Source: an uncultured bacterium (GTDB lineage Bacteria > Cyanobacteriota > Vampirovibrionia > Gastranaerophilales > Gastranaerophilaceae). Taken from it: 64,000 nucleotides of DNA. Location of the stretch: assembly GCA_949282195.1 (NCBI GenBank), contig CASDOW010000004.1:1-64000 (forward strand), written 5' to 3'. Position 1 is the first letter of the stretch. Every line of letters starts with the position of its first letter. Position numbers and translations under genes: made by a program. The notes under the pieces are model-generated. The model ran no database searches. It saw only the letters and a program-made list of their open reading frames with translations, and had not been told where the DNA came from. Positions 1 to 574 of the stretch are shown piece after piece.

Positions 1-574
1 AAATCTTTGATTTCACAGGAGCATACTTTTGAAGTTTGAATTGCGGCGCGATGCGCCCAATGAAAACGAAAAAGCATACGGATGTGAGTCCGTGACGGCA
101 GACCGTAGAGGTCTGGCGGACAGGACGACACTGGACGATTGCGACGTAGAAATCTTTGATTTCACAGGAGCATACTTTTGAAGTTTAAGCCTTAGTCCGG
201 CTGGACTTAGGCGAAAACGAAAAAGCATACGGATGTGAGTCCGTGACGGCGAAACGTTGAGTTTCGGCGGACAGGACGACACTGGACGATTGCGACGTAG
301 AAATCTTTGATTTCACAGGAGCATACTTTTGAAGTTTGAATTGCGGCGCGATGCGCCCAATGAAAACGAAAAAGCATACGGATGTGAGTCGGCGCGATGC
401 GCCCAATGAAAACGAAAAAGCATACGGATGTGAGTCCGTGACGGCGAAACGTTGAGTTTCGGCGGACAGGACGACACTGGACGAAAGCGACGTAAGAATT
501 TGTGTGAAGCACAAATTCCTCAGGAGCATACTTTTGAAGTTTAAGCCTTAGTCCGGCTGGACTTAGGCGAAAAC
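1..574. repeat. modular hairpin repeat array, ~150-bp unit
   Basis: Units lie at 1-149, 150-300, 301-495 (enlarged by an internal duplication) and 496-574 (partial); the array continues off the left edge. Each unit has conserved blocks (CAGGAGCATACTTTTGAAG; AAAAGCATACGGATGTGAG; ACAGGACGACACTGGACGA) separated by three variable hairpins. At the first hairpin, GAAATC/GATTTC alternates with GAATTTGTG/CACAAATTC. At the second, ATTG-c-GGCGC/GCGCC-CAAT (40-61) alternates with GCCTTAGTCC/GGACTTAGGC (one mismatch). At the third, CAGACC/GGTCTG (99-115) alternates with CGAAAC/GTTTCG. A fixed stem ACGGA/TCCGT (78-93) sits in the middle block. The sequence differs while the pairing is kept, so structure seems to be what is preserved. 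The array is clearly GC-richer than the flanks. Whether it acts as RNA or as DNA is unknown, and I do not recognise the family. Confidence 0.9.
345..436. repeat. 46-bp tandem duplication inside repeat unit 3
   Basis: Bases 345-390 are repeated exactly at 391-436. The duplicated piece starts at the GGCGC hairpin and ends at TGTGAGTC, so unit 3 carries two copies of the second hairpin and of the GCATACGGATGTGAG block. The exactness suggests a recent slippage or unequal recombination event within the array. Confidence 0.9.

Follow-up and report, generated by a model that had tools for sequence, protein, structure and literature searches.

Folded, Modular Repeats Behind Gene Ends in Gastranaerophilales: An Apparently Mobile Family of Non-Coding Elements

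The order Gastranaerophilales is known almost only from metagenomes, and the window analyzed here, by which we mean the whole stretch of 64,000 nucleotides from one of its uncultured members, opens with a locus that raises a specific question: How does a repeat come to keep its linking blocks nearly unchanged from unit to unit and to carry unrelated sequences in the hairpins between them? The earlier note on this DNA had read the joint change of both hairpin arms as compensatory change, which would place a folded RNA or single-stranded DNA under selection, and had named the swapping of whole hairpin cassettes as the alternative.

Layout of the array and extent of the family

The locus is a tandem array (window 1-574, all parts on the + strand) of ~150-bp units that recur as direct repeats at a spacing of 149-195 nt. 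Each unit joins three hairpins, A, B, and C, by constant linkers in the order A, central strand, B, central strand, GCGACGT, C, YCAGGAGC; the frame GCGACGT-C-YCAGGAGC is constant across the family and nearly identical between the window units. Every hairpin, in turn, comes in two unrelated sequences, exactly as the earlier note had described: GAATTGCGGCGCGATGCGCCCAAT and AAGCCTTAGTCCGGCTGGACTTAGGC in the A arm, AGACC-GTAGA-GGTCT and GAAAC-GTTGA-GTTTC in the B tip, GAAATC-TTT-GATTTC and GAATTTGTG-TGAAG-CACAAATTC in the C arm.

Because window base 1 is the first base of contig C4, the array is incomplete. It begins with the remnant of a unit 0 (1..22), in which a C hairpin cut by the contig start is followed by the CAGGAGC linker and of which covariance model R1 matches the 3′ end, the 5′ part being cut off. 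Next comes an A arm of type 1 (23..77), CTTTT-GAA-GTTT-GA-ATTG(C)GGCGC-gat-GCGCC-CAAT-GA-AAAC-GA-AAAAG. The B and C arms of unit 1 (78..171; R1, 84.6 bits) comprise the central strand ACGGATGTG, a B base GTCC/GGAC (88-91/123-126) followed by a GTGA/GACA internal loop, the B tip (96-118) with loop GTAGA, GCGACGT (141-147), the C stem-loop (149-163), and CAGGAGC (165-171). An A arm of type 2 (172..228), GTTT-AA-GCCT-T-AGTCC-ggct-GGACT-T-AGGC-GA-AAAC, leads to unit 2, whose B and C arms (229..322; R1, 86.1 bits) have the tip GAAAC-GTTGA-GTTTC and the same C arm as unit 1. The second copy of A arm type 1 lies at 323..378, positions 301-390 being identical to 1-90, and unit 3 contains an exact 46-bp tandem duplication (345..436, where 345-390 equals 391-436). 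Its B and C arms (424..527; R1, 84.2 bits) include GCGACGT (487-493), a C arm of the other type, GAATTTGTG..CACAAATTC (494-520), and CAGGAGC (521-527). A terminal A arm of type 2 (528..574) is the last piece, beyond which AT-rich intergenic DNA begins: GC content is 45-49% within the array versus 24-33% beyond it. Folded as DNA, the + strand of the array gives z = -4.4.

The end of contig C20 carries the same kind of array, ~156 nt from ssrA, and the two are probably one array that the assembler split; such arrays break assemblies, as they did in this genome. Downstream in the window, a gene for a family 2 glycosyltransferase (825-1836) has a stop at 1508 and an apparent continuation in another frame, seemingly a frameshift, a pseudogene, or an assembly error.

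The array is one of many. BLAST with a single unit returned 21 matches in the same genome and matches in 24 of the 28 genomes of the genus, so that the further copies for which the earlier note had proposed a search do exist. A covariance model built from 67 units counts at least 17 copies in the host genome, per-genome copy numbers being lower bounds with up to 17 candidates scored per genome. With this model, the family is present in 110 of 240 genomes and 29 of 37 genera of the host's taxonomic family, another family of the order contributes four matches in one genome, and 29 outgroup genomes (5 of the sister class, 24 cyanobacteria) have no match; named carriers are mostly Candidatus Gastranaerophilales MAGs. 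Copies at the genome, genus, and family level rule out chance or a local duplication of low value. Loose-pattern matches elsewhere are of another kind: Most of those in other cyanobacteria have no hairpin, and actinobacteria, Bordetella, and Firmicutes yielded hairpin-free stretches that are rich in GC or resemble genes, so that we regard both as chance. No window match to Rfam 15 exceeded any gathering score, 1-700 giving only sub-threshold matches, and a limited text search of the literature found no description of the repeat. Apparently, we are dealing with undescribed, short, mobile, non-coding elements of uncultured gut relatives of cyanobacteria.

Fold and exchange of stems

The cleanest view of the fold comes from the C arm, as the pattern used to collect it, GCGACGTRN{10,30}YCAGGAGC, requires no pairing between its ends and has no control matches within the genus. 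A terminal stem of at least 5 bp is present in 46 of 47 distinct C arms versus 2 of 24 chance matches in other cyanobacteria. In the 67-unit alignment, 83% of pair cells hold standard pairs (65% when shuffled), two-sided changes amount to 264 cells (78 when shuffled), and the covariation score of 0.464 (0.152 when shuffled) is lost when the partner is slid; relatedness alone can lift sequences above their shuffles, and we give more weight to the C-arm test, which is unbiased. Across genomes, these results strongly support the earlier note's reading that both arms change together; covariation, the absence of which would have counted against it, is present.

The stems are interrupted by recurrent non-canonical loops. 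RNAalifold paired the GC of GCGACGT with that of CAGGAGC, which would put a GA/GA mismatch pair between the two linkers, and the GTGA/GACA loop in B, as read from the sequence, likewise corresponds to a GA/GA mismatch pair. In the A arms, a 3-bp stem, GA/GA, and a further 3-bp stem occur in 28 of 76 cases versus 0.13 in shuffles, the same motif with other dinucleotides in 0-1, and on the complementary strand in none. This confinement of GA/GA to the + strand indicates that the conserved fold is the single-strand fold of the + strand and not a cruciform.

In RNA, the usual intermediate of stepwise compensation is a G-U pair. The element stems are almost purely Watson-Crick: G-T accounts for 8 of 719 pairs (1.1%), equal in number to A-C mismatches (8), and is 8-fold rarer than in the tRNA stems of the same loci (65 of 742, 8.8%; Fisher P = 1.5e-12). 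G-T pairs that are this few and no commoner than A-C point to arms that were probably replaced whole rather than compensated step by step, so that two-sided changes, though strong, are no proof of RNA selection, and this part of the earlier note is not supported. Its alternative of swapped cassettes fares better: The 78 units analyzed comprise about 36 basal stems, 28 tips, 46 C arms, and 69 arm combinations (approximate counts, the basal-stem caller being crude), the tip AGACC/GGTCT is found on several different basal stems, and the C arm GGGACGAAGTCCCT is combined with nine different tips. This leaves two routes: exchange of entire arms, or template switching that rewrites an arm from its partner, a process that makes and repairs stems with multi-base compensatory changes (PMC8794818).

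Genomic sites and insertion at gene 3′ ends

The elements lie directly behind genes, foremost those for tRNA and tmRNA, and mostly point in their direction. For 103 arrays the upstream feature is known; 82 are oriented with it and 21 against it, raw numbers that are inflated by orthologous loci; for 59 non-redundant upstream protein clusters the sense:antisense ratio is 41:18 (P = 0.004). Where the upstream gene encodes a tRNA or tmRNA, the orientation is sense in 17 of 17 cases, eight of them ssrA. The interval between gene end and GCGACGT clusters at 110-129 nt, with a smaller peak at 50-79 nt, which matches units with a long and a short A arm, respectively, and implies that many units start at the final base of the tRNA or at the stop codon. 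Sites include groES-groEL, nusG-L11, S8-L6, and the positions behind groEL and behind the PNPase gene. This breadth of 59 protein clusters plus tRNAs and tmRNA rules out a riboswitch or leader tied to one gene class, and the AGGAG of CAGGAGC would fit as a ribosome-binding site at one locus (L286), not at the groEL or rplK sites.

Orthologous sites are occupied in some genomes and empty in others. The nusG-rplK site is filled in G001, G003, G004, G025, and G026, and at least seven other related genomes have no insert there; groES-groEL is filled in G002, holds a partial unit in G026, and is empty in the other genomes read, an empty site being open to explanation by loss as well as by lack of insertion. 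No target repeat comparable to that of the tRNA and tmRNA sites was found behind these protein genes (nusG-rplK, groES-groEL).

At ssrA, tRNA-Leu, and tRNA-Ala, the insert starts at the last base of the gene and ends in a ~5-nt copy of the gene end. For ssrA, CTCCA is followed by TACTTTTGAAG (start also written TACTTTTG) through to GACATTAT and a second CTCCA; for tRNA-Leu, GCCCA is followed by AACTTTTGAAG (also written AACTTTTG) through to GACATTAT and GCCCA; for tRNA-Ala, CTCCA is followed by TACTTTTG through to TTAT and CTCCA. If ssrA encodes its CCA, the CCA is placed behind the insert (L259, L265, L267). The ssrA flank is empty in five genomes of the genus (G004, G015, G022, G023, G024), and other flanks hold either a single element or two in a row that differ in kind, every one of them closed by a copy of the ssrA 3′ end, which is tandem accretion at an attachment-like site. 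Empty orthologous sites, together with inserts that abut tRNA and tmRNA ends and carry a short target repeat, support what the earlier note had offered as one option, a mobile or attachment-like element.

The other element behind ssrA is a hairpin of a different kind. It is located at G000:C20:221-376 (L302), between ssrA and the C20 array, as well as in L297, L298, L299, L305, and L309; it starts near an inverted copy of the T-arm (GAACTCGC) and ends in a direct copy of the ssrA 3′ end (CTCTCGCCATCTCCA).

Explanations and known systems

We consider it somewhat probable that the repeat is a non-autonomous mobile element recognized through its fold. Such an element would be a non-coding unit of ~75-190 bp whose + strand folds as a single strand into hairpins broken by fixed non-canonical loops. 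A trans-acting recombinase would probably recognize, on the single strand, this fold together with the linkers GCGACGT and CAGGAGC rather than the stem sequence, and would insert the unit just past a gene 3′ end in the direction of the gene, leaving ~5 nt of target at the far junction. Through further insertions into an occupied site, and through unequal exchange between linkers, tandem arrays such as window 1-574 could then arise, and exchange between copies or template switching could replace the arms. We identified no recombinase and none that consistently adjoins the copies; the proteins that recur beside them mainly reflect orthologous operon genes. The Y1 transposase of RAYT type (PF01797) occurs in 1 of the 28 genus genomes and is absent from the host's own, and reverse transcriptase (RVT_1, PF00078) is absent from the host genome and from 16 of the 28, copy-rich ones included. 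Consequently, neither is required as mobilizer, and the reverse transcriptase expected for a group II intron or retro-element product is lacking.

The sense bias and the position directly behind stop codons and tRNA or tmRNA ends would also be expected of a functional RNA element, that is, a barrier, processing, or stability signal of mRNA, tRNA, and tmRNA 3′ ends that is spread by gene conversion and kept as its fold helps the host. The GA/GA and GTGA/GACA loops conserved on the sense strand and the occupation of the same operon sites across several species, for example S8-L6, agree with this; G-T pairs at the level of A-C and far below that of neighboring tRNAs, sites empty in related species (nusG-rplK, groES-groEL, ssrA), antisense copies, and one kind inside a reading frame do not, and we regard it as rather unlikely. 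Less probable still is that the hairpins persist without selection on them, through template switching at quasi-palindromes that rewrites an arm from its partner in one event while the repeats spread as neutral DNA: It accounts well for the nearly pure Watson-Crick compensation with few wobble intermediates and draws on a known activity (PMC8794818), but leaves the conserved linkers, the one-strand GA/GA loops, and the insertion at gene 3′ ends unexplained. The same process may, however, act as the route of arm change within the mobile-element explanation. Very improbable, finally, is that the repeats belong to larger integrative elements at tRNA and tmRNA genes, either as their cargo or as debris of their attachment sites, and travel with integrases or phages. 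The short target repeats at the ends of ssrA, tRNA-Leu, and tRNA-Ala and the copies that neighbor a DUF2924/serine-recombinase pair or a Gp49/HTH pair, common to several genera, speak for it; the units, however, are complete, small, and without cargo, ordinary genes precede most sites, and a search of 2.9 million viral contigs with two patterns gave no real copy, its one match being a GC-rich chance match, and we reject phage carriage.

Among known systems, the family is most like the BOX elements of Streptococcus pneumoniae with their boxA-boxB-boxC modules: Both are short, interspersed, intergenic, strongly folded by prediction, and modular with tandem modules, and the co-transcription of BOX elements counts among the likenesses (PMC3049150). 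Modular units with variable copy number, by which BOX is defined, are found in the window family too. BOX, in contrast, belongs to another organism, phylum, and set of motifs; in the window family, the linkers persist as new stems come in, and the units insert just behind the 3′ ends of tRNA, tmRNA, and other genes. REP/BIME repeats with their RAYT (Y1) are likewise hairpins behind genes for which single-strand recognition is plausible. REP stems, however, are conserved in sequence, unlike the stems here (46 distinct C arms in 78 units, many in one genus), and RAYT is nearly missing from the genus. MITEs are likewise small, non-coding, and strongly folded, and their short target repeat has a possible counterpart here, ~5 nt long, at the tRNA and tmRNA sites and not behind the protein genes, yet this family is GC-rich instead of AT-rich and has no terminal inverted repeats, the ends of the ssrA copy matching in 3 of 25 positions. 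With integron attC sites it shares tandem arrays and a structure conserved beyond sequence, but not cassette genes or paired core sites: No paired RYYYAAC..GTTRRRY boxes were found, the B loop GTTGAGT matching alone without a partner box. As defining features are lacking or, for BOX, the comparison covers modular layout and copy number, we do not file the family under BOX, REP, MITE, or attC, and view it as a new variant of folded interspersed repeat and possibly a categorically new integrative element.

Integrative elements at tRNA and tmRNA 3′ ends resemble it in their site and orientation, in the short copy of the target that they leave at the far end, and in tandem accretion; here, in contrast, the inserts measure only ~170-190 bp, have no integrase, and use many other targets. 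It is conceivable, though unlikely, that the repeats form a new class of minimal integrative element, a gene-less unit whose single strand is recognized by shape and that is aimed at gene 3′ ends, accretes into tandem arrays, and renews its stems as cassettes; possible targets would be the last base of a tRNA or tmRNA and the stop codon of an mRNA, and the class would resemble an integron without cassettes. Even the broader reading, if true, provides an order-wide family of mobile folded repeats in Gastranaerophilales, whose hundreds of natural copies with fold and sequence uncoupled allow one to ask whether a recombinase, or the cell, recognizes shape or letters.

Several loci deserve separate mention. 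In two other genera (L286:1489-1923 and L287), the sole copy is embedded in the 3′ end of a DUF2924 gene, whose C-terminus it supplies in frame, and this gene directly precedes a large serine recombinase gene. Four genera (L198, L199, L201, L202) share one copy that is flanked by an HTH gene and a convergent Gp49-like (HigB-type) gene and for this reason seems to travel with its module. Two families of the order have in common a long variant of the C arm (e.g., GCGACGTAGGATAATCGAG...GATACCCACAGGAGC; L322, L132, L139), perhaps the ancestral form. A further dispersed repeat, TGTCACCCTGAACTCGTTTCAGGGTCT with an inverted partner, surrounds several arrays (L023:3100-3800, G000:C1).
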